Source of the DNA: a virus
Strand: one strand, 5' to 3'
IMG/VR virus record: IMGVR_UViG_3300009106_000024
Location: 1 to 27,311 of that record
Length of the DNA: 27,311 nucleotides
Shown here: positions 2,474 to 26,786 of the stretch, piece by piece
How positions within the stretch are numbered: position 1 is the first letter of the stretch
Layout of the letters: the number at the start of each line of letters is the position of its first letter
Notes under the pieces: generated by a model
Seen by the model: the letters and a program-made list of their open reading frames with translations, nothing else
What the model was told of the DNA's origin: nothing
The model's database searches: none
Translations under genes and position numbers: made by a program

Positions 2474-2935
2474 TTATCTTACCTTGTCTAAAAATACTTC
2501 AATGTCGTGTATCTCGTTGGGTACATTCGCCAATGAAAAACTTACAGTAATGCCTAACTTGTTTTGGTCTAACTCATTATATCCTCGACCATCATTCACC
2601 TTTACTTCTTCTAAAACAACTCTCGGTTCATAAATGGATATCACATCTTCTATTGCAGCCTGTAGTTCTACTTCCTTCAATGGAGTAAAGTTTTCAAATA
2701 GAGAACCATGAACCCCACCACCAATCTCTGGATGAAATGGTTTCTCTCCAGAATTGAGTAACACCAGATTTCGGACTGATCTTTTGACAGCCTGTATATC
2801 TGTAACCTTACTCACATCAGAGGATGTGGGATGCTTTGTAAAAAATAAGTTTAGGTCCTTATAGATGAAAGTACTTCTAGGACTCTCGTTTACTGCTTGG
2901 GCATCATCGTACCCTGTGTTATATGTAATAGGCAT
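2474..2935 (-). CDS. 25: Baseplate wedge protein gp25 (lysozyme-like fold)
   Basis: A 153-residue gp25-family protein, part of the sheath-initiating core of the baseplate. Family hallmarks are DLNLFF near residue 28, the DIQAVKRSVRNLVLLNSGEK segment, and GVHGSLFENFTP followed by an amphipathic helix and IYEPRV. No Shine-Dalgarno sequence precedes the ATG. Instead an exact TATAAATA late box lies at 2942-2949, leaving six bases to the start codon, so the predicted transcript begins one base before ATG. gp6 follows with no gap. Confidence 0.93.
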   Translation of the reverse strand: MPITYNTGYDDAQAVNESPRSTFIYKDLNLFFTKHPTSSDVSKVTDIQAVKRSVRNLVLLNSGEKPFHPEIGGGVHGSLFENFTPLKEVELQAAIEDVISIYEPRVVLEEVKVNDGRGYNELDQNKLGITVSFSLANVPNEIHDIEVFLDKVR

Positions 2936-2941
2936 ATTTAC

Positions 2942-2949
2942 TATTTATA
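2942..2949 (-). promoter_or_regulatory. T4-type late promoter box for gp25
   Basis: The minus strand reads TATAAATA, an exact match to the T4 late-promoter element recognised by the gp55 sigma factor. If it occupies -13 to -6 as in T4, transcription starts at 2936, one base before the gp25 ATG. Confidence 0.8.
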
Positions 2950-2956
2950 TCATTTA

Positions 2957-3541
2957 TTATTGGTTTCCACCACCACCCTCATCCGACCCACTGTCGTATG
3001 TAGTATCATCAACGTCTGTATTATTAGTATTACTATCTGCAGCGTTGTCTGTTGTAGTAGTACCTGTCGCAGCAGCAGCACTATCACTTTTCACTCCATG
3101 GAGACTACTACACCCATTGGGAATAGTCCAAGAACCAGCAGTACTATGAACAACTTTTACATTTGGACCATAGGCACACCCATTTTTAGAAAATCTAAAT
3201 GTTGCCCTGTTACCATTTGTCTGTCCTGAATAACTACCTTGCTCTCCATTCACTGTACAAGTTCCACCAATAACACCTATAAGAACAACCAACTTCTTAT
3301 TTTTCTCACTAATAGGTTTCCAACGTAAATTTCCACCTCCGCTTGCATGACCGCCCCCGCCACCCTTCTTCCTACCAGTTGTTTTCTTATGACTACCATC
3401 TGGTCTGTCAGGAAGAGTTACTCCCGCACTCTTATTCCAAGTACCATCAGTAAAGGCACCCAGACCAACATTATATTTGGCCGTTACACTTACCTCAGCT
3501 GAAGTGACTTTGACTGTAACTGTTGCTGAGATCAAAGACAT
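2957..3541 (-). CDS. Low-complexity protein between gp5 and gp25, probably tail-associated
   Basis: A 194-residue protein I do not recognise. The N-terminal third is beta-rich (alternating V/T/S). A Gly/Lys-rich linker with GGGGGHASGGG follows at about residues 60-70, then a middle domain with three Cys (near CTVNGEQ, NGCAYG and NGCSSL). The last 40 or so residues are an acidic Asn/Asp/Thr/Gly tail ending in GGGGNQ. The ATG overlaps the gp5 stop (TAATG), with a strong GAGGAGG ribosome site just upstream. Placement between gp5 and gp25 argues for a tail or spike-tip role. It lacks an obvious PAAR signature, so calling it a tip protein would be speculation. Confidence 0.75.
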   Translation of the reverse strand: MSLISATVTVKVTSAEVSVTAKYNVGLGAFTDGTWNKSAGVTLPDRPDGSHKKTTGRKKGGGGGHASGGGNLRWKPISEKNKKLVVLIGVIGGTCTVNGEQGSYSGQTNGNRATFRFSKNGCAYGPNVKVVHSTAGSWTIPNGCSSLHGVKSDSAAAATGTTTTDNAADSNTNNTDVDDTTYDSGSDEGGGGNQ

Positions 3542-6090
3542 TACTCTACCTCCTCGTTATGTAAATCTCTAATCTTTTCAGCATTCTTATTGAGGGCCAA
3601 ACCTGTTGATCCTGCAAAAGGATTCGTTTGTGGTTTACCCAAATCATCCATACCAACTGAGGGCCCGGTCATCTGCATCCAGTTTACATGAGTCGCATCA
3701 GAGAGTGCTCCCCAAGTACCTATATCGCCTTCGGCATTACTATAGGCTCCAGGTAGTGCGGCTGTCACAGAGTCTGCTGCTTTGAAAGCAAAGTTTACTC
3801 TGGCCTGTAATGTATTTCTAGACTTTGGTGAATCAGTTAGGTCTACAGTAGCCCCACCTTCATGTACGATAGCACCTCCAGGTAATTGTTGATTGCCGGC
3901 AAAGTCTGAACCAAATGCCATCCCTGCAAACGGATCACCGTGAGGTACTTTCAAAACTATTCTACCACCAGAAGCTCCTAATGCCTTTGACTCAAGATGT
4001 ATCAAACCACCAAAAGGTTCGTCTTGTCCACCCATACCATTATACCCAGTACCCACTTCTGTATCAGCAGCAAAACCATTGGCCAAGGCCTTGATCTGTG
4101 CACCATGAAGATTGATAGTATTTTCCAATGCCTCAATGTTTACATTATGTCCTCTGAGGTTCAAGTCTCCTTTGGCGTGTATGTCAATGTTGTGGTCAGA
4201 GACTAAACGAATATTCCATTTGGCTCCAACTGTCATTTGGTCATTCGCTCGTATCATCACTTCATCATCACCCGTCCAAAGTATCTTACCCTTTACATAA
4301 AGATAATCATCGTGAATGGTTAGATTGTGATTGTCTCCTACGACCTTTGTAGTTTTATTACCACTGTCATCAATCTCGTAATAGGTACCAGACCTATGTT
4401 CCTGATTGATTCTCTCTGCCCCAGGAGTATCATCATATTCCATGATGTGTCCTGACTCAGATTCATAAACATGGTTGTAAGGATATCGGGCGGCATTCGC
4501 TGAAGTAGGCTCACTCCAATAATGTGTCATTATTTCCGCAGTTCTCTCCCCACCACTAAAAGCATCTTTACCACCGTCAACAAACATACCATGACCTATG
4601 TTGATCCACTTCTCTCTTGTCTCTGCTCTCCGGGTTATACTCCAATGACCGTGAAGAAGAACAACACCCCCACCCTTATATTCGGAGAACTCGGGTGCAC
4701 CAAGTGGATAGTCCCAATCAGCAGTCGTGGCCATGGGATTAACTTTTACGTTAGCGGAATACGTTGTTAGATTTTTAGCACCCTTCTCTGTTCCCGGTCC
4801 AGAAATACAAGTACCATCGGCCGATCCTAAAACAATAGTAAATCCTGCCTTGGCTGTTCCAGAAACTTTGTTTGCCCGAAAACGTCTTCCATTTAGTTCT
4901 TGCATTCCCATCACACCAGAGATCATTATAACATCACCCGTTTCAAAAGGTTCAGTATGTCCTCCCTCTGTTGTAACTGTAATAGGAGCGGTATTTGTAA
5001 TATTGGTTATCTTCATACCACCCTTGGCCAGACGATTGATATCTTCTCTTGGAATAGCAACTCGTTCCGATCCCTTCACATCAGCGAACTTGCGTTGGCC
5101 TCCTATCTTACGACCAATAACTGCATCATCATATAACTTTTCTACTCTTTTATAAGTTGAAGGACCATAATGATCTTTGAGTTTATTTTTGGTAGTAAAA
5201 TATAAAGCCGGGTACGGTTGTCTATATTTTTTACTAACTTCTTTGAGGACAGGATAACTAATTTCGGCCCCATCAAAATAACCGGTACTAATAACATGAC
5301 CCAAGTTTATATTGGACATATTATCACTCTTACCAGTTTCAGTCCAGAACTTCTCTGCATCTTCAGGAGGACCTACCAGTCGTCTAGTAGTTCCATATGT
5401 TTCGTAAAGAACATCTGTATGGGTTAGGGTTGTAAAGTTTTTATCAACACCTTTAGGTAGAGCAAGAGCTTCATGTCTTGCTTTGGCATATGATGCGGCC
5501 GCCCCATAAAGTATCTCATCACCATACATCTTCATTCTATCAAAAGCACCATCACCCCAATTGGTATGTGTATCTACAAAATCTGCTTTGGGTGTAACAG
5601 TACCGGAACCTTGATATCTCCAAGAGTTTCTACCTGGGGGGGATGGAATTGTAGCCAACATGGATTCATCATTCAAATCAAAGAAACCATATTTACCATC
5701 CTTTCTAGCACTACCCCAACTACCTTTACCGCCACCACCACCTTTATGTTCTTCGCTTTCTCCTTGAGAAGGAAGAACATTTATACCAGGGAGAACACCT
5801 AGCACAAGCCATTCCTGTAGTAAGTCTGTATCACGACACATACAGATAACCCATACACCTTCTTCAATCCCTGGATGAGATTCACCAACACCCGAGTGGG
5901 TATGGCCTCCCACCGGGAGCATTACCTGGCTCCACGGCAAATCTTCTGTGGGAATTTTTTCAGTATCTTCTGTGTGAAACCCTAGTAATCGAACCCGAAC
6001 TCTACCTAACTTACTAGGGTCTTGACGAGATTCTACTACGCCCATTGCGAACGCAACTTTGTCTAAACCAAACCATCCTATATTATCCAT
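3541..6090 (-). CDS. 5: Baseplate central spike / hub protein gp5 (no lysozyme domain)
   Basis: An 849-residue spike protein. Residues about 8-105 match the gp5 OB-fold domain (VVESRQDPSKLGRVRVRLLG, then EEGVWVICMCRD and EWLVLGVLPG). A long middle part contains an insert near residues 370-430 with MISGVMGMQELNGRRF, resembling the small E1_FCCH-like domain of phage tail proteins. The C-terminal third resembles the VgrG/gp5 beta-helix (YESESGHIMEYDDTPGAERI, then HRSGTYYEIDDSGN). I see no T4-lysozyme domain, although T4 gp5 (575 residues) has one. No ribosome site precedes the ATG; an exact late box lies five bases upstream, so the mRNA may be leaderless. Confidence 0.9.
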   Translation of the reverse strand: MDNIGWFGLDKVAFAMGVVESRQDPSKLGRVRVRLLGFHTEDTEKIPTEDLPWSQVMLPVGGHTHSGVGESHPGIEEGVWVICMCRDTDLLQEWLVLGVLPGINVLPSQGESEEHKGGGGGKGSWGSARKDGKYGFFDLNDESMLATIPSPPGRNSWRYQGSGTVTPKADFVDTHTNWGDGAFDRMKMYGDEILYGAAASYAKARHEALALPKGVDKNFTTLTHTDVLYETYGTTRRLVGPPEDAEKFWTETGKSDNMSNINLGHVISTGYFDGAEISYPVLKEVSKKYRQPYPALYFTTKNKLKDHYGPSTYKRVEKLYDDAVIGRKIGGQRKFADVKGSERVAIPREDINRLAKGGMKITNITNTAPITVTTEGGHTEPFETGDVIMISGVMGMQELNGRRFRANKVSGTAKAGFTIVLGSADGTCISGPGTEKGAKNLTTYSANVKVNPMATTADWDYPLGAPEFSEYKGGGVVLLHGHWSITRRAETREKWINIGHGMFVDGGKDAFSGGERTAEIMTHYWSEPTSANAARYPYNHVYESESGHIMEYDDTPGAERINQEHRSGTYYEIDDSGNKTTKVVGDNHNLTIHDDYLYVKGKILWTGDDEVMIRANDQMTVGAKWNIRLVSDHNIDIHAKGDLNLRGHNVNIEALENTINLHGAQIKALANGFAADTEVGTGYNGMGGQDEPFGGLIHLESKALGASGGRIVLKVPHGDPFAGMAFGSDFAGNQQLPGGAIVHEGGATVDLTDSPKSRNTLQARVNFAFKAADSVTAALPGAYSNAEGDIGTWGALSDATHVNWMQMTGPSVGMDDLGKPQTNPFAGSTGLALNKNAEKIRDLHNEEVE

Positions 6091-6095
6091 TACAA

Positions 6096-6103
6096 TATTT
6101 ATA
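6096..6103 (-). promoter_or_regulatory. T4-type late promoter box for gp5
   Basis: The minus strand reads TATAAATA exactly. With T4 spacing the first transcribed base is 6090, the A of the gp5 start codon. It faces away from a weaker box for the plus-strand gene at 6126. Confidence 0.8.
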
Positions 6104-6111
6104 ATGAAAAT

Positions 6112-6119
6112 ACTAAATA
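6112..6119 (+). promoter_or_regulatory. Weak late-type box for the plus-strand gene at 6126
   Basis: The plus strand reads ACTAAATA, six of eight matches to TATAAATA, with six bases to the TTG start at 6126. The spacing matches the other late boxes in the window, which is the main reason to take it seriously. Confidence 0.4.
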
Positions 6120-6125
6120 TGAATA

Positions 6126-6350
6126 TTGAACGACCCTAACATAGAACTCCTATCAGAGTGTATTACTGATGCCCACAAACGTATAAAACTATACGAGATG
6201 TTACAGGGTGGACTATGGTATGCGATATTTCGTTCTAACTCCAATCAGGAAATTCTAAAAGAAAAAGAATTGATAGAGGAATTGGAGAGAATGAAATTAG
6301 ATGTTATAGAATGGGACCAGAAAGTCCGCAGACGCAGCAAGGCCCCCTAA
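6126..6350 (+). CDS. Small unknown protein, divergent from gp5
   Basis: A 74-residue, mostly helical and charged protein (LLSECITDAHKRIKLYEMLQ, then an EKELIEELERMKLDV helix and a basic RRRSK tail). No family recognised. An in-frame TGA lies six bases upstream, so the first usable start is TTG at 6126; the next in-frame ATG is near residue 24. There is no ribosome site, but a weak late box ends six bases before the TTG. The stop lies inside the 5' arm of a GC-rich hairpin and a bidirectional terminator follows at 6437. It is one of only three plus-strand genes here. Confidence 0.6.
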   Translation: MNDPNIELLSECITDAHKRIKLYEMLQGGLWYAIFRSNSNQEILKEKELIEELERMKLDVIEWDQKVRRRSKAP

Positions 6351-6376
6351 CCGTTTCATCCATCGGGAGAGGGGGC
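6342..6376 (+). other. GC-rich hairpin at the 3' end of the small plus-strand gene
   Basis: GCCCCCT (6342-6348) pairs perfectly with AGGGGGC (6370-6376). The loop contains a further CCG/CGG pairing. There is no T-run right after it, so it is not a classical terminator on its own. It overlaps the stop codon of the 6126 gene. Confidence 0.55.
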
Positions 6377-6392
6377 TCTTGATGACCTACTG

Positions 6393-6428
6393 ATTATGTA
6401 GTTGGCCCGAGGCTCATCATTACATAAT
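6393..6428. other. Two-tier hairpin in the gene-free stretch 6351-6576
   Basis: ATTATGTA (6393-6400) pairs with TACATAAT (6421-6428). The loop holds an inner GCC/GGC stem (6405-6407 with 6411-6413). No open reading frame is supported here. It sits between a GC-rich hairpin and a terminator, so the stretch may form a structured 3' end or a small RNA. Confidence 0.4.
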
Positions 6429-6576: not shown

Positions 6577-6999
6577 TTATCTATCTCCATGAAAGTGATG
6601 GTGGCCATCTGTATGATGGGTATGTGAGTAGTGCCCATGCCAATGTGGCTGATAACACCTCCAGTTGTGCTGATGAACAGTTCCTCGATGATCGTAATAC
6701 TGTGGAACATATGGACCAACGAACTGACCATTTACACATTTACTGTGAGGAAGTCTTGCACAGTTATAACCATAAATGTTACAACCATGAGACAAGTAAT
6801 ATTCTCCACAGTGTACAGGTGTGTGGCCATGGCCATGCCCGTGTCCATGCCCGTGTCCAGGCGGGGGGTAGTGACCATGTGGAACATCAAACAACCAATC
6901 CAAGGTGATACTCCAATGTACATCATCTGCATTGGTCGGCACACTCATGCCAAGGGTCAATGCTACTAAAGTAGCTCTCAAAAAATTATTCAATCTCAC
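6577..6999 (-). CDS. Exported His-rich protein, probable metal binder
   Basis: About 140 residues from a GTG start at 6999 (TTG at 6993 is an alternative). Both overlap the end of the upstream gene and place a signal peptide at the very N-terminus (FLRATLVALTLGMSVPTNA, then DDVH). The mature part is extremely rich in His: a run of six Gly-His pairs around residues 47-58, scattered HxH, HHH and HTHHTDGHHHFHG near the C-terminus, plus four Cys. This composition suggests binding of Zn, Ni or Cu outside the cytoplasm. No named family is recognised. It is the last gene of the 7998-6577 cluster and is followed by hairpins and a terminator. Confidence 0.7.
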   Translation of the reverse strand: MRLNNFLRATLVALTLGMSVPTNADDVHWSITLDWLFDVPHGHYPPPGHGHGHGHGHGHTPVHCGEYYLSHGCNIYGYNCARLPHSKCVNGQFVGPYVPQYYDHRGTVHQHNWRCYQPHWHGHYSHTHHTDGHHHFHGDR

Positions 7000-7276
7000 T
7001 TTTCTTCTTTCTCCAATCTGTCCATGCATCTCCATTATGTATTTCCCCAACAACAACATCTTCCTTCGGGACCCAAACTTCACAACGGAGTTCCAAATCT
7101 TTCACTTGATACTTTGTATCTTCTCGGTTTCTCGCTATGACCAGTCCACGTCTTGTAATACGTTTGTGGTCAACGACCGGTAAGTCTGCCAAAGAGTGCA
7201 GACCGCCAGGACGGTCATACTCATCAACAGGCCATTCGGCCTCATAATAACATCTGTAATGCGTTTCTTCACTCAT
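6986..7276 (-). CDS. Unknown 96-residue protein
   Basis: A 96-residue soluble protein with no family I recognise. It is rich in Asp, Glu, Arg and Trp, beta-prone in the middle (RGLVIARNREDTKYQVKDLE) and ends in a WTDWRKKKSEIE tail. The ATG at 7276 overlaps the end of the upstream HExxH gene by 8 bases and has GGAG about 8 bases upstream. Its 3' end overlaps the start of the His-rich gene, indicating a tightly packed operon. Confidence 0.75.
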   Translation of the reverse strand: MSEETHYRCYYEAEWPVDEYDRPGGLHSLADLPVVDHKRITRRGLVIARNREDTKYQVKDLELRCEVWVPKEDVVVGEIHNGDAWTDWRKKKSEIE

Positions 7277-8063: not shown

Positions 8064-9281
8064 TTAGTTGAACGAATAACCGTCATCATCGTCCTGTTCG
8101 TCGTCGTCATCAACATCATCAGCTTCATTCTGCTGGGACATAATGTCATCAACACTCACACCGGCATCAACCTTGGTGTACAGGTCAAGAAACGACTCCT
8201 TCGTTTCCGAATCGAAACGTGACACGCACATTTCAATGGCAGACATCTTGTTATCGAAAATGCCATAGGCACCTACGATGTGAACCAGACGGCGAGTGGA
8301 GATGATCTCATCAACGCCACCGTCCATGAACGTCTTGCGAATAACGTCTGCCCATTTGATAAGGTTATCGACAAAATCATCGTCGGCCTTATCAAGTTTC
8401 GCCAACTCATTGACGAGAATTTTCTTCTCAGTCTTGTTGGTCGGGTACGACTGCTCCAGGGTAATCGGGAACCGCTCGAGGAACGCCTCATTCAGTACGT
8501 TGGTACCGATGAACCGACCATCGTCAGAACCCTGGCCCTTGGTGTTGGCCGTAGCAATGACTGTGAAACCCGGTGTCGGGTGTACCCACTTGCCAATCTT
8601 CTTGATATAGATACTGGATCCCTCAAGGATAGGCTGTAAGCACATCACCTTGTTGGATGCCAAGTCGATTTCGTCAAGCAGAAGGACTGCACCACGTTTC
8701 ATCGCCATCACGACAGGACCATCGTGCCAGACAGTCTCACCATTCACCAGACGGAAGCCACCAATCAGGTCATCTTCATCCGTTTCGATAGTGATGTTGG
8801 TACGGACAAACTCACGTTTGAGTTTCGCACACACCTCTTTCACCATGAGGGTCTTACCGTTGCCGGACATCCCCGTGATAAAGATGGGGTAGAACATCTT
8901 GGACTTCACAACCGATTTCACAGTGTTGAAGTTTCCGAAAGACACATACCCGTCAAAGGTATCCGGGACATAAGAGTCCTGTTCCTCAAGAACCGAGATG
9001 GCCGTGGGTGCCATGGCAACAGCCGAGACACTTTCAGTCGCCTGTACCGGTGCCGGAGTCGGAGTAGTCGCACCACACTTGCCATCGACTGTCGGCAGGT
9101 AGTACTCACCACGAACGCCAGTCTTGAGTTTCTTGAGCCAAGACGGGACTCCGGCAAGACTCAATGATTCCTTGACGGCCATCGCTTCGGGCCGTGTGAT
9201 AGTCGTGCGGTTCTCGCCCAACATCTCACGTGCGGCATTCACAAAGTCCACCTTGCGGTCGTTCATATTGATAATTTTCAT
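8064..9281 (-). CDS. cobS: CobS-like AAA+ ATPase (MoxR type)
   Basis: A 405-residue AAA+ ATPase. Walker A GMSGNGKT is at about residues 137-144, Walker B VLLLDEID at 199-206, a sensor-1 segment VIATANT follows, and an arginine-finger-like LNEAFLERF comes after it. The C-terminus is a long Asp/Glu tail ending in YSFN. Marine T4-like phages often carry this gene, named for the cobaltochelatase ATPase. The CobT-like VWA gene directly upstream (27 bp away) supports a MoxR ATPase plus VWA adaptor pair, but cobalt insertion is only one possible role. AAGGAAA lies upstream of the ATG. The gene is visibly richer in G+C than the tail genes. Confidence 0.88.
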   Translation of the reverse strand: MKIINMNDRKVDFVNAAREMLGENRTTITRPEAMAVKESLSLAGVPSWLKKLKTGVRGEYYLPTVDGKCGATTPTPAPVQATESVSAVAMAPTAISVLEEQDSYVPDTFDGYVSFGNFNTVKSVVKSKMFYPIFITGMSGNGKTLMVKEVCAKLKREFVRTNITIETDEDDLIGGFRLVNGETVWHDGPVVMAMKRGAVLLLDEIDLASNKVMCLQPILEGSSIYIKKIGKWVHPTPGFTVIATANTKGQGSDDGRFIGTNVLNEAFLERFPITLEQSYPTNKTEKKILVNELAKLDKADDDFVDNLIKWADVIRKTFMDGGVDEIISTRRLVHIVGAYGIFDNKMSAIEMCVSRFDSETKESFLDLYTKVDAGVSVDDIMSQQNEADDVDDDDEQDDDDGYSFN

Positions 9282-9308
9282 ACTGTTTCCTTTTTCAGTT
9301 GTTTACGT

Positions 9309-11531
9309 TTAGACTATCAAGTCCATGATTCGGTTAGCAAGATAACGGTTGCCCGTTTTCTGCTTTTGATGTTTCATAAAGAGGGTCTTTAGTTTGCCCT
9401 TGGTGATATCTTCATCGACCTCACCCAGGCCACCCTCACTTGTTATGTTCTTCATTGTGGGAATGACATAATACTCATCATACCCAGCCGTTGTTACTGT
9501 TGCGAATCCCTCCTCGCGGATTTGTTTCCGGGCCTTCTTATGTTTCGCCGGATAAGAACTTCTCCAACCCAGGTACTTCTCAAGAATACTCCGACCAACA
9601 GTTTTACCCTGTACCAAAAAGATGCCGATATTGTTTATACCATAACGGTCCTTCATCAGTTTCAGAAGGAACTGCACTTGCAGTTCAGCCCAATGGCCAT
9701 AGTGTCGTACCATGTTCGCCTTCGCATAACTCGGGCTAGTAATGTTGTACTGCTTTCTGGTAATCGGATCCTGATAATAGATATCAGTTCGTCCCATTGT
9801 CAGATGCTCATACCCAAAACCACTATCGGTATACTCGTCAACTCGTTTTCTCCAGCAACTGTTCGCTTCGCCATCGGTCAATGTGATAAGGTTCACCTTG
9901 TCCAGTTTGTAATCTCGTTTGAACGCAGGCAATATCTCATTCATCACCATCAGGCCTTCGACCAACGGGGTTGAACCCAGATCAAACTTGCCCCATCCTG
10001 TACGATTGTAATAATCCTGGTTCGTGAATCCAAACTGATACAGATTATACAGCGATTCGTTTTGTTTCTGACCAGACTGTCGTGAGGACACAAGGTTCAG
10101 TAAACGAAAGCCTCTGGTATCGTCCATGGCGATATCGTGATGGTTCTGTTTCCACAGAATCGGATACTTTCTACGAATGTAATCCTCATGGGACTCATCA
10201 TCACGTTGCTCCACCTTCTCGTTATACCACTGATTGGTGAACGCATACACTTCAAACGGTATATTGACCTTTGAACAGAACCAAACAAGGTTCAGAACCT
10301 GTTTGATGGTGTCAAACATCTGACCGTGCATCGACCCACTCCAATCGAGGAGCATCAGCAGTCCATGGTTCTTGCCATCATGCACAATCGCACGTTTCAG
10401 AAACAGGTCATCGTTATACTTGTATGAGTGCAACGCATTCACATTCAGCACACCCGTCTTATTGATCGAGGTTCGCTTGTATTCCTCTGCAGCTTTCTTT
10501 CGTTCAAACTCCTTGACCATGTAATTCACGATCTTGATTGAGGCATTACGGTACGACTTGTAATCAGCACGCAACTCGGGTTCGAGCTTCGGCATAAACT
10601 GGCCATCGTATCGGTCCTTCTCATATTCTTCCATGTCGGCAATTTTTTCAGCACTGGCCTTGTACATTTGTTCAAGTTTGTCCGTCATGCCTTTACGAAC
10701 CACGTCATGGTTGATGATGAGAGTATTCAAATTCGGCTTCGGCAGATTGATATACATTCGATTGGCCGCATAGGCATCTCGCAGTTCTTCAATTCTGGCT
10801 TCATACTCGGCCTGGGTGTTGACTTCCTCGTCATCCACCTCGTGTTCTTCTTTGTCGAACCCTTCACCGGCAGATTCCAGATCGTCAGTCGGAACTTCGA
10901 TTTCCTCACCGTCGCCAATGTTATCATCAGACTCCTCAAAGCCCGGAAAGAATTCCTCAGGAAAGGCCTCTGGTTCGTCCTCTTCGGCATAGTGCTTCAT
11001 AATCTCTTTAGAAACACGAACCGCATCGTCAAAGGTTTCGCATTGTTCGACCAATCGAACCAGATACAGTTCGCTGTCAAAGAACGGAACACACAAAGAC
11101 GCACCGCCCTTAAAATGTATGTTCAAACGATCAAGGAGGTTCATCTCGTCCCAGCGTTTTCCCGAAGCCAACTCACCGAAGAAGCCTCTTTCAAAGAGTT
11201 CCCGATAGCCGGTCACGAAACAAGCACGCAGACCAGGATACTTTCGCTGAACTTTTCTTTCGATACGAGGATCTTCCACGATGTTCAGGACATTCTTCGA
11301 CACGCCTTCCTTGACAATGGCCTGTTCCCAGGCATTCTCGGGTGTATACAAAGAGTGACCGACCTCATGTCCGATCAACATATCAATCAAAGAAGATGAG
11401 ACATTCTTCCAAACCGGTAGAGTCAACACACGTTGCTTTACATCAAACGAAGCCGTCTTGGCATTCGGATCATGCTGAACAAAGATGTTCTCCTCGGCCA
11501 ACAGTTTGGCTAATTGATTTTTGGTTTTCAT
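9309..11531 (-). CDS. CobT-like protein: HExxH protease-like domain plus VWA domain
   Basis: About 740 residues from the ATG at 11531, chosen because GAGG lies about 12 bases upstream; the frame extends to 11564 without a ribosome site. An N-terminal LIGHEVGH (HExxH at 55-59), with NIVEDPRIE at about 83-91, looks like a zinc-metallopeptidase helix pair. A long Glu/Asp-rich linker (about 182-250) follows. The C-terminal VWA domain starts near residue 390 with the MIDAS motif DWSGSM (396-401). VWA proteins of this type work with MoxR/CobS ATPases, here the next gene. A chelatase or a protein-remodelling role are both possible. Confidence 0.85.
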   Translation of the reverse strand: MKTKNQLAKLLAEENIFVQHDPNAKTASFDVKQRVLTLPVWKNVSSSLIDMLIGHEVGHSLYTPENAWEQAIVKEGVSKNVLNIVEDPRIERKVQRKYPGLRACFVTGYRELFERGFFGELASGKRWDEMNLLDRLNIHFKGGASLCVPFFDSELYLVRLVEQCETFDDAVRVSKEIMKHYAEEDEPEAFPEEFFPGFEESDDNIGDGEEIEVPTDDLESAGEGFDKEEHEVDDEEVNTQAEYEARIEELRDAYAANRMYINLPKPNLNTLIINHDVVRKGMTDKLEQMYKASAEKIADMEEYEKDRYDGQFMPKLEPELRADYKSYRNASIKIVNYMVKEFERKKAAEEYKRTSINKTGVLNVNALHSYKYNDDLFLKRAIVHDGKNHGLLMLLDWSGSMHGQMFDTIKQVLNLVWFCSKVNIPFEVYAFTNQWYNEKVEQRDDESHEDYIRRKYPILWKQNHHDIAMDDTRGFRLLNLVSSRQSGQKQNESLYNLYQFGFTNQDYYNRTGWGKFDLGSTPLVEGLMVMNEILPAFKRDYKLDKVNLITLTDGEANSCWRKRVDEYTDSGFGYEHLTMGRTDIYYQDPITRKQYNITSPSYAKANMVRHYGHWAELQVQFLLKLMKDRYGINNIGIFLVQGKTVGRSILEKYLGWRSSYPAKHKKARKQIREEGFATVTTAGYDEYYVIPTMKNITSEGGLGEVDEDITKGKLKTLFMKHQKQKTGNRYLANRIMDLIV

Positions 11532-11547
11532 GTAAAAAATTTTCCTC

Positions 11548-11562
11548 GCGATTTTAAATCGC
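11548..11562 (-). promoter_or_regulatory. Palindrome abutting the ribosome site of the CobT-like gene
   Basis: A near-perfect palindrome (GCGAT/ATCGC arms, A/T centre) ends directly at the GAGG ribosome site (11547-11544) and is followed by a T-run before ATG. It could be an operator or an RNA hairpin limiting ribosome access. No promoter is obvious. Confidence 0.4.
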
Positions 11563-11618
11563 ATTTCGCTTTTGTGGTTGCGTTTTCGCTACTGTGGTAG
11601 TGTACGATAAGCATCCTC

Positions 11619-23954: not shown

Positions 23955-24466
23955 TACGACACTACTTCACGGGCAAACTCCGATGCGACTTGACGGACAT
24001 ATTGTGGATCTAAAACTCGGATTTGTTTTTTATTGGCATTCAGATTTTCTTCGTATTCGTAATTTGTTATAGCCAATGCTCCAACATGATCGGAAGGAAC
24101 TGTAATCTTCTTATTAGTATCACCTGATGATTGTGCCGCCTCATAATGATGAACACCATTCACATTAGTATACTTTGCCTTTACAAATCGTTCCAAGTCT
24201 CGTAACCCCATTGGCCAATCGTAATAGGGGTCTACCACATCATTGGTCATAAGAATAATCCAATGTAGTTTAGCATCACCATACTGTTCATATGCTACAT
24301 CTTCTGGCCGTTGACCTTCCTTTACATCATACTTGGAGAATATGGAATTGTTATTCTGTACTGCCTTTTTTATTTTTACTCGTATCAGAAAGTCACGAAT
24401 ACTTTTAGTATTTTTGTTTCCAGTTACATCGTAATCTATCTTTGGAAATTTAGTAAAATAACTCAT
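23954..24466 (-). CDS. 53: Baseplate wedge protein gp53
   Basis: A 170-residue gp53-family wedge protein. The segment YDVKEGQRPEDVAYEQYGDA, then KLHWIILMTNDVVDPYYDWP, is the LysM-like core shared by gp53 homologues. The start overlaps the gp48 stop (ATGA), and the stop overlaps the hub start (TAATG). It joins the wedge to the hub in the assembled baseplate. Confidence 0.9.
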   Translation of the reverse strand: MSYFTKFPKIDYDVTGNKNTKSIRDFLIRVKIKKAVQNNNSIFSKYDVKEGQRPEDVAYEQYGDAKLHWIILMTNDVVDPYYDWPMGLRDLERFVKAKYTNVNGVHHYEAAQSSGDTNKKITVPSDHVGALAITNYEYEENLNANKKQIRVLDPQYVRQVASEFAREVVS

Positions 24467-25266
24467 AGGACTACATCACCTCCTGCACCCATACCAAAGT
24501 ACGGATCTCTAAAATCCTGTTGAGTAAGGATTTCCATTTCTTTGAAGGCCAATGATATGTCTACCTGTGTTGGTAAATCATTATCAGAAAACACATTGAA
24601 TTTGTCTCCACCATACTTGATACCCACACTAGTCAATACACTCATCTTGAAATGCATCTCTGCAATATTTCTAGGTTGAATGGTAATATCAAAAACATGA
24701 GGAACATTATATAAACGTAGTACATCACCGCCACCAGTCAGTAGTTCTGGAGATGAATAAAACTTAAAGAAATTACAAATAGTCAAAATAATTTGAGAGT
24801 CTGTCCTGTTTCTTGGTCGTAACGAGAAATTAAAAGAATGATCCCTATATCCAGGACCACTATACGATATATATGCCTGTTCAAGAGCTCGTGAAGATAC
24901 ACCACCAATCCCAAGCATACCTTCTGCCCGAGCCTTTACGATATCCATAGTACCAGATACACTCTCAACCTTTTCAACACCAGCATTACCCTTCTCAGAT
25001 TTTGGTTCTGCCTTCCCACCATCTTTACCCATAAACAAACCCAATATTTGAGATCCGGCGGCTTGCATTTCATTTGCTGTCGATTCATCCCAACCCTGTT
25101 GATAGGTAGTCTCTAGACCTTCTGGTGGTACTGGTAACCAGGCCCAATTACCAGTGGCCTGTGTTTTCACTTGACCAATAGCCGATTCTGATAATATTTT
25201 ACGAGCATGGAACCCTATCATGGGCATACCGTCCTCGTATTTAGATGGATAACTTGTTGATCCCAT
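24463..25266 (-). CDS. 48: Baseplate tail-tube cap protein gp48 (or gp54 type)
   Basis: A 267-residue gp48/gp54-type protein that caps the hub and starts the tail tube. The C-terminal half is characteristic (AYISYSGPGYRDHSFNFSLR, RPRNRTDSQIILTICNFFKF, then PTQVDISLAFKEMEILTQQD). T4 gp48 is 364 residues, so this version is shorter. A late box lies at 25292-25299, and GAGGG precedes the ATG, so unlike its late neighbours it has a normal leader of about 20 bases. It heads the operon reaching DUF465. Confidence 0.85.
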   Translation of the reverse strand: MGSTSYPSKYEDGMPMIGFHARKILSESAIGQVKTQATGNWAWLPVPPEGLETTYQQGWDESTANEMQAAGSQILGLFMGKDGGKAEPKSEKGNAGVEKVESVSGTMDIVKARAEGMLGIGGVSSRALEQAYISYSGPGYRDHSFNFSLRPRNRTDSQIILTICNFFKFYSSPELLTGGGDVLRLYNVPHVFDITIQPRNIAEMHFKMSVLTSVGIKYGGDKFNVFSDNDLPTQVDISLAFKEMEILTQQDFRDPYFGMGAGGDVVL

Positions 25267-25285: not shown

Positions 25286-25293
25286 TATAAGTA
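25286..25293 (+). promoter_or_regulatory. Late-type promoter box for gp4
   Basis: The plus strand reads TATAAGTA, seven of eight matches, ending six bases before the gp4 ATG. It overlaps the minus-strand box of gp48 by two bases. Confidence 0.65.
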
Positions 25294-25299
25294 TTTATA
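25292..25299 (-). promoter_or_regulatory. T4-type late promoter box for gp48 operon
   Basis: The minus strand reads TATAAATA exactly. With T4 spacing transcription starts near 25286, leaving about 20 bases before the gp48 ATG with a GAGGG ribosome site. Confidence 0.8.
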
Positions 25300-25749
25300 A
25301 TGAAAAGACACAAAGCATACAAAGGTAAGTTCCACCCAGGCAACCCTAAAAAGTATAGAGGTAATGTGAGAAACATTATCTATAGGAGTATGTGGGAAAG
25401 GAAACTTATGGTACAACTAGACCGAAACGAAAAGGTTATTGAATGGGGTAGTGAAGAAATCATTATACCCTATAGGTCTCCTTTGGATGGGAAGGTGCAT
25501 CGTTACTTCCCAGACTTCTATGCTAAAGTGATCGCCTACGATGGCAGTATCAAAAAATTGATTATAGAGGTGAAACCTAAATCACAGACACGGCCGCCCA
25601 AGTCTAATCCAAAAAGAAAAACTAAAGCCTGGGCCTTTGCGGTAAAAGAGTATGCAAAGAATCAAGCGAAATGGGAATCAGCTGTTGCTTTTTGTGAAAA
25701 AAATGATATGGAGTTTAAGATTATGACCGAAGATACTTTGGGTTATTAA
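25300..25749 (+). CDS. 4: Head completion protein gp4
   Basis: A 149-residue gp4-family head-completion protein, whose fold is related to TnsA-type endonucleases. YRSMWERKLMVQLDRNEKVI at about 28-47, then EWGSEEIIIPYRSPLDGKVH, YFPDFYAKV and a KLIIEVKPKSQ strand, give the Glu...Asp...ExK layout typical of this group. It acts at the final step of head filling. There is no ribosome site; a late box ends six bases before ATG, predicting a transcript starting one base earlier. It is one of three plus-strand genes. Confidence 0.92.
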   Translation: MKRHKAYKGKFHPGNPKKYRGNVRNIIYRSMWERKLMVQLDRNEKVIEWGSEEIIIPYRSPLDGKVHRYFPDFYAKVIAYDGSIKKLIIEVKPKSQTRPPKSNPKRKTKAWAFAVKEYAKNQAKWESAVAFCEKNDMEFKIMTEDTLGY

Positions 25750-25755
25750 TAAATA
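25748..25755 (+). promoter_or_regulatory. Late-type promoter box for the HtrA-type protease
   Basis: The plus strand reads AATAAATA, seven of eight matches (the NATAAATA form reported for marine T4-like phages). It ends five bases before ATG at 25761, so transcription should begin at the A of the start codon. It overlaps the gp4 stop codon region. Confidence 0.7.
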
Positions 25756-25760
25756 ATGTA

Positions 25761-26786
25761 ATGAGAAAAATTTTACTTGCCTTTTTGTTTGTATTCAGTT
25801 GTTCTGCTGTAGCTCTAACTCCTGAAAATGTAAACAAAGCCCTGGATGCCACCGTAATGGTGACAGGGGAGGATAGTGGTTTTGGATCTGGTGTGGTTAT
25901 AAGTGAGGACGGCCTTATCGTCACTAACTATCATGTAATACATAGAATCGACCCTGTAATATATTTTTACAACCCTAAAGATTTGAATTACTATTCGGCA
26001 GATATTGTAGGTATTGATCCTGTTGCTGACTTGGCCCTATTGAAGGTCAATGTACCGGATGAGTATCTACCTCTAGTATATCTTGATATAGATACGGAAG
26101 TTGAGTTAGCAGAAGAAGTTATTGCTATTGGACATCCTATGGGACTACAGTGGTCAGTGACAAAAGGAATCATCAATCATCTAGAACGGCCTGGAAAGAT
26201 AACACCTTATGTCAATGTTATACAGCACTCCGCTATTATAAACAGAGGAAACTCTGGAGGGCCCCTGGTCAATACTGATGGCGATATCGTAGGTATCAAT
26301 ACTTACATTCTATCTCCTAAAGGACAGTGGACAGGAGTAGCCTATGCTGTTCGTAGTGATACAGTATCCGAATCTATAGAGCAAATGAAAAATACTGGTG
26401 AAGTAATATACTCCGCAACAAAGATGGCAATAAGAAGTCTAAATGAATGGTATCTTACTCAACTAATAGAGGAGTTTCCTGAGGAAAAGTTACCCACAAA
26501 TATATTTGGTCTAATAGTAACAGATGTGGAAGAAGATGATTATGCCTATGAACAAGGCATTAGAAACCTTGACGTTATTATTGCCGTGAATGGTGAACCA
26601 GTAAACTATCTAGACGAACTCAAACAAGTTATGAAAGGTCTATCTCCTGATGATATAGTAACACTTCTCATCATAAGAGATTCCCATATCCGAAGTATGC
26701 CTTATAAAATAGGCACACTAGACTTCGATACCTATATGGAATTCTATGATAGGGGTGAGGATTCTAATACGCGACAGCCACGTTAG
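25761..26786 (+). CDS. Exported HtrA/DegP-type serine protease
   Basis: A 341-residue S1C protease with an N-terminal signal (MRKILLAFLFVFSCSAVALT); C14 could make it a lipoprotein, but the -2 Phe is unusual. The catalytic triad is His58 in TNYHVIH, Asp90 in VADLALLKV and Ser165 in RGNSGGPLV. One C-terminal PDZ domain lies at about 240-330 (FGLIVTDVEEDDYAYEQGIR, then DVIIAVNGEPVNYLDEL). It likely works outside the cytoplasm. There is no ribosome site; a late box gives a leaderless message. Its 3' end overlaps the converging tape-measure gene by 23 bases. Confidence 0.9.
   Translation: MRKILLAFLFVFSCSAVALTPENVNKALDATVMVTGEDSGFGSGVVISEDGLIVTNYHVIHRIDPVIYFYNPKDLNYYSADIVGIDPVADLALLKVNVPDEYLPLVYLDIDTEVELAEEVIAIGHPMGLQWSVTKGIINHLERPGKITPYVNVIQHSAIINRGNSGGPLVNTDGDIVGINTYILSPKGQWTGVAYAVRSDTVSESIEQMKNTGEVIYSATKMAIRSLNEWYLTQLIEEFPEEKLPTNIFGLIVTDVEEDDYAYEQGIRNLDVIIAVNGEPVNYLDELKQVMKGLSPDDIVTLLIIRDSHIRSMPYKIGTLDFDTYMEFYDRGEDSNTRQPR

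Follow-up and report, generated by a model that had tools for sequence, protein, structure and literature searches.

Comparative sequence analysis predicts a leaderless gp5 mRNA from a T4-type late promoter in a marine T4-like phage

The stretch of DNA analysed (the window) comprises 27,311 nucleotides of the viral record IMGVR_UViG_3300009106_000024. On its minus strand, gp5 was identified by matches to PHROG 430 'baseplate hub subunit and tail lysozyme' (1e-66) and Pfam Gp5_OB (2e-10). The following features lie at this gene and 5′ of its start:

3541-6090, minus strand: gp5, baseplate hub gene, 849 aa (phrog_430, Gp5_OB)
6088-6090, minus strand: gp5 start codon ATG; transcription is predicted to begin at its A (6090)
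6096-6103, minus strand: T4-type late promoter box of gp5, TATAAATA, predicted to occupy -13 to -6 and conserved in the clade
6111-6119, minus strand: conserved upstream element TATTTAGTA, 7 nt before the gp5 box
6126-6350, plus strand: ORF of 74 codons beginning with TTG; its reading as a leaderless late gene is not supported

Read on the minus strand, the sequence 5′ of gp5 is TATTTAGTATTTTCAT-TATAAATA-TTGTA-ATG. The exact box five bases before the ATG, on which the initial annotation had built its proposal, was thus seen at 6096-6103 with the spacer TTGTA. No SD-like sequence was found by a loose text match before either the gp5 ATG or the TTG at 6126, which bears out the earlier remark that both genes are devoid of a ribosome site. 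In T4, the late box is located about one helical turn 5′ of the start, with its first base at -13 and the box at -13 to -6 (PMC2988020); for a box 5 nt from the ATG, this rule predicts +1 on the A of the ATG. No gp55 gene was detected within the window, and the choice of start site is therefore assumed from T4.

Three exact copies of TATAAATA are present in the 27,311 bases (2942-2949, 6096-6103 and 25292-25299), each on the minus strand and just 5′ of a virion gene (gp25, gp5 and a gp48-like gene, respectively, as assigned by PHROGs and Pfam). An in-frame ATG follows at 4-7 nt for two of the three, as compared with 0.15 expected from permuted octamers. Boxes with one mismatch were at chance level (47 found versus 43.8 expected), so a weak box alone, such as that on the plus strand at 6112-6119, carries little weight. 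The other promoter-related features of the window are:

2474-2935, minus strand: gp25 baseplate wedge gene, predicted to be leaderless or to have a 1-nt leader
2942-2949, minus strand: TATAAATA as late box for gp25; 6 nt separate it from the ATG at 2935
3548-3555, minus strand: ribosome site GAGGAGGT of the operon-internal gene 2957-3541, in contrast to gp5 and gp25
24463-25266, minus strand: gp48-like baseplate tail tube cap gene (phrog_230), leadered
25292-25299, minus strand: TATAAATA as late box for the gp48-like tube cap gene; 25 nt separate it from the ATG at 25266
25748-25755, plus strand: AATAAATA, a variant of the late box, with 5 nt between it and the ATG at 25761
25761-26786, plus strand: trypsin-PDZ protease gene (Trypsin_2, 5e-28; PDZ_2), predicted leaderless

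The gp48-like gene exemplifies a leadered configuration within the same window as the leaderless-type gp5 and gp25, and the SDs at operon-internal genes, for example GAGGAGGT before 3541, indicate that the phage does use SDs. The protease, which is DegP/HtrA-like and has its own box 5 nt from the ATG, is positioned directly 3′ of gp4, where relatives have gp2. The promoter regions of gp4 and the gp48-like gene overlap face-to-face (25286-25299), each box lying near the start of the other gene, an arrangement also found in relatives. For gp4 in the window, where TATAAGTA precedes the ATG at 25300 by 6 nt, a leaderless state was considered and is not claimed; the distance in the gp4 genes of relatives is mostly 20-40 nt.

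The initial annotation had suggested searching homologous phages for a conserved box-to-ATG spacing. Relatives of gp5 were found in 13 IMG/VR contigs, 11 of which include the gene start; in all 11, a gap of 5 or 6 nt separates TATAAATA from the ATG, while the spacers in the clade vary (TTGTA, GTCAT, TTGTAT, TTAGC and TATAA). For gp25, relatives of the window's clade have TATAAATA followed by 6 nt throughout. At the level of sequence, the box-to-ATG distance is conserved in the clade and the spacer is not. Homologues with a ribosome site, named in the initial annotation as evidence against its reading, are absent from the gp5 clade and appear solely among more distant gp5 and gp25 genes, which retain the box but insert an SD leader, representing a clade-level switch.

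The layout was then surveyed in 1,497,027 bases of related marine loci, where each box was paired with the first ATG that begins an ORF of 60 codons or more (ORFs called mechanically) and the distance between the two was measured. The 302 distinct TATAAATA sites, which are phylogenetically related rather than independent and come from loci fetched through gp25, gp4 and gp5 (and are thus biased towards these neighbourhoods), showed a bimodal distribution: 85 sites at 4-6 nt (4 nt, 4; 5 nt, 58; 6 nt, 23), none at 7-15 nt, and then a broad group at 16-40 nt, the majority of which have an SD. With permuted octamers, the yield was 1.0 site for spacings of 5-6 nt and 3.5 for those of 9-13 nt. When counted by protein family, the 5-nt site occurs in 26 families, versus zero to three families at each distance from 9 to 13 nt. 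By loose text match, an SD-like motif is present in 58 of the 61 sites at 14-24 nt. Within T4 itself, none of the 32 exact boxes lies less than 13 nt from an ATG, and most are accompanied by an SD.

Some bacteria use A/U-rich, non-SD initiation. The ATG-proximal box might accordingly be no promoter at all and instead be an A/U-rich translation enhancer in a polycistronic RNA whose transcription begins upstream, and several leaderless-type genes do sit inside gene clusters (for example, gp2 just 3′ of gp4). However, the motif is identical to the late box at leadered genes of the same phages, the distances cluster tightly at 5-6 nt and then resume only at 16 nt, a pattern that a general A/U enhancer would not require, and the spacer sequence is variable. 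We regard an enhancer as very improbable.

The starts themselves carry a further signature. Among those 5-6 nt from exact boxes, 88 are ATG and none is GTG or TTG, as expected since leaderless translation depends on AUG. At leadered sites the predicted +1, which is the sixth base past the box, is a purine in 246 of 309 (80%) as compared with 45% at the fifth base (77 versus 54% when weighted by family); the bases after the sixth are also purine-rich, and the start-site signal is therefore moderate. In genes with 5-nt spacing, the A of the ATG occupies this sixth position and is preceded by T or C in 85 of 93. The spacing and purine data bear on whether transcription instead starts 1-3 nt off the A, which would produce very short leaders of 1-3 nt rather than truly leaderless RNA. 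Under the strict T4 rule the 6-nt spacing of gp25 does give a 1-nt leader, and a few sites in phages HTVC008M and Mosig are at 8 nt; against this, sites at 5 nt far outnumber those at any other distance, and the preferred purine of leadered genes falls exactly at the sixth base. We consider such short leaders unlikely.

Taken with the distances, a start on the A of the gp5 ATG is the reading we prefer: the gp5 box is likely set so that the late mRNA begins on this A, giving a leaderless mRNA whose 5′-terminal AUG is bound by the ribosome without an SD. Both the transcription start and the leaderless translation are inferred from the position of the box. The leaderless gp5 mRNA predicted in the initial annotation is strongly supported by this comparison, as the spacing is kept where the spacer is not and the layout recurs elsewhere.

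That recurrence is uneven among genes. The proteins downstream of the boxes were clustered, and leaderless-type and leadered sites were counted for each cluster. For gp2 (DNA end protector), all 57 of 57 sites are at 4-6 nt, and this gene accounts for about half of the 5-nt sites. Mixed states were found for gp25 (20 leaderless-type versus 43 leadered) and gp5 (24 versus 18), while the leadered state prevails in gp48-like genes (1 versus 66), gp4 (1 versus 48) and the baseplate wedge family phrog_438 (0 versus 29). Low protein copy number was considered as a criterion for leaderless genes and fits gp2, gp5, gp25, gp48 and the tape measure, but is not claimed. In quick trees, in which some long branches are uncertain, three changes between the leaderless and leadered states suffice for gp25, and four were counted for gp5. 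Both genes are leaderless-type in the window's clade; gp25 is leaderless-type and gp5 leadered in L078, L081, L083 and L086, and the reverse is found in L088, L093, L094, L120 and others. As judged from these sequences, gp5 and gp25 switch state independently, and the state follows clades with few switches per gene.

On the opposite strand, the weaker box described in the initial annotation as ending six bases before a TTG was located as ACTAAATA at 6112-6119, followed by TGAATA and the TTG at 6126-6128 (a gap of 6 nt). It had been taken as the second of two back-to-back late promoters, each producing a leaderless mRNA, for gp5 and for the 6126 gene, respectively. Besides this spacing, the proposal can draw on the fact that ACTAAATA acts as a late box at the gp25 or gp5 genes of some relatives. 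Yet ACTAAATA falls within TACTAAATA, which reads as TATTTAGTA on the opposite strand, and TATTTAGTA lies exactly 7 nt 5′ of the gp5 box across the window's clade. It is kept where no divergent gene exists: three relatives (L007, L008 and L012) carry a tRNA-Asn gene in the same orientation immediately upstream, and another (L009) has a terminator-like hairpin there. In the two most distant members (L071 and L073), it is retained in part. Since the element persists also where the neighbour is a tRNA gene or a terminator, the plus-strand box is more readily interpreted as belonging to the promoter region of gp5. The gp25 boxes share no upstream element of this kind, and a conserved -35 element is absent from T4 late promoters (PMC2988020).

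The 6126 ORF itself argues in the same direction. Its TTG departs from the starts at 5-6 nt from exact boxes, which are ATG only; it has no family match in PHROGs or Pfam, and it was found solely in near-identical contigs from the same or a very near phage. Between the window and relative L004 the ORF differs by four substitutions, two silent and two not, a count that we hold against divergent promoters. Divergent late promoters are thus improbable, and the plus-strand ACTAAATA most likely belongs to the region of the gp5 promoter. The earlier interpretation therefore stands for gp5, through the spacing in relatives, and is not supported for the divergent half, in which a conserved element without a divergent gene, a TTG start and a narrow, family-less ORF were encountered. 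Over 6126-6350, the DNA of L004 and the window is 98% identical, whereas the adjoining gp5 proteins are 75% identical; this contrast suggests a recent exchange at the gp5 promoter. Right after the stop of the ORF, a GC-rich inverted repeat (GGCCCCCT ... AGAGGGGGCTC; window 6340-6400) resembles a terminator.

Cultured phages allow the layout to be compared with published annotation. HTVC008M, a cultured SAR11 phage, has 12 ATG starts at exactly 5 nt when variant boxes are included, and all 11 of these that were checked are annotated starts. They are listed here by position:

6280
7562 (CsgF)
16007 (tape measure)
18916 (gp2)
18943 (gp4)
19456 (gp48)
31132 (gp25)
49760
75559
75830
142360

The pattern ATAAATA-5-ATG was counted nine times in HTVC008M, eight in Mosig, four in Melnitz, two in T4 and zero to three times in six cyanophages, where backward-pattern controls also gave zero to three; with 10 nt in place of 5 nt, every genome gave zero to three. 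Melnitz combines both states, having gp2 at 5 nt and a gp25 with an SD leader of 16 nt. Widespread use by cyanophages was not seen in Syn9, P-SSM2, ACG-2014i, S-BM3, DSL-LC03 or Bellamy, all at background level, and Syn9 has no exact box with an ATG at 5-6 nt. In ACG-2014i and DSL-LC03, gp2 abuts gp4. The layout apparently occurs mostly in non-cyanobacterial marine T4-like phages, a distribution resting on three cultured phages versus six cyanophages.

The following sequence of events would account for these features. A late RNA polymerase recognizing a gp55-type promoter would start on the first base (A) of the gp5 ATG, and the ribosome would engage the 5′-terminal AUG of the resulting leaderless mRNA instead of an SD. 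Genes gp25 and 25761 would follow the same layout, from which the operon-internal and gp48-like genes differ, and gp5 would be one of a class of leaderless late genes maintained by selection on the box-to-AUG distance. Read-through RNA, in which the AUG is internal and has no SD, would be poorly translated or silent; such gating would confine synthesis of the protein to the time after the onset of late transcription, which we infer to be likely. More broadly, we see an about even chance that in this marine T4-like lineage the late box serves as a joint start of transcription and translation at gp2, gp5 and gp25 (in HTVC008M also gp48 and the tape measure), with translation solely from RNA of the gene's own late promoter and several switches between leaderless and SD-leadered states.

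Late genes of T4-kind phages are usually described with SD leaders. Like those of T4, which are recognized by the gp55 sigma with gp33 and the gp45 clamp, the promoters described here have a TATAAATA box 5′ of virion genes; unlike in T4, where exact boxes are at least 13 nt from the ATG and mostly accompanied by an SD, many here are at 5-6 nt and SD-less. Lambda cI is a leaderless mRNA that shares the 5′-terminal AUG, the absence of an SD and the requirement for AUG, but what is predicted here is a whole class of phage late genes, conserved and defined by where the promoter lies. Brock 2008, as cited in PMC5312081, deals with leaderless mRNAs. Late promoters of the cyanomyoviruses S-PM2 and Syn9 have the motif NATAAATA (PMC2984593); phage family and motif are the same as here, and the difference lies in the ATG at 5-6 nt, which is absent in Syn9 and at background in the other five cyanophages. 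In T4, gene e and I-TevI are translated only late, via an RNA hairpin over the SD (PMC3014915): there too a late promoter lies immediately 5′ of the start region and only the late RNA is well translated, whereas here neither SD nor leader is predicted. T4 gene 25 has a split ribosome site with RNA structure between SD and AUG (PMC3014915); the same gene, gp25, thus shows unusual initiation in both, with a structured SD-to-AUG region in T4 and a predicted leader-free start in the window's clade.

Leaderless mRNAs and T4-type late promoters are each already known; no description of a leaderless T4-type late RNA, or of a conserved class of such genes in T4-like phages, was found in the literature searched, whose coverage excludes most subscription journals. 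Orthologous genes that have the same promoter and occur in both states in related phages, including a cultured SAR11 phage (HTVC008M), offer a natural experiment for the study of leaderless translation. There are consequences for the calling of genes and the annotation of promoters as well, as boxes close to an ATG can be dropped or the start shifted.

Scans of the window gave no Rfam match and no tRNA. The ORF at 6577-7083 (minus strand), which has no Pfam or PHROG match, is His-rich, with a signal-like N terminus and the runs GHGHGHGHGH and HHTDGHHHFHGDR; its product is possibly a secreted metal-binding protein. A CobS-like AAA ATPase gene and an adjoining PHROG 459 'peptidase' gene occupy 8064-11564 (minus strand), and over 80 bases the DNA of the CobS-like gene matches cyanophage Bellamy at 85% identity.
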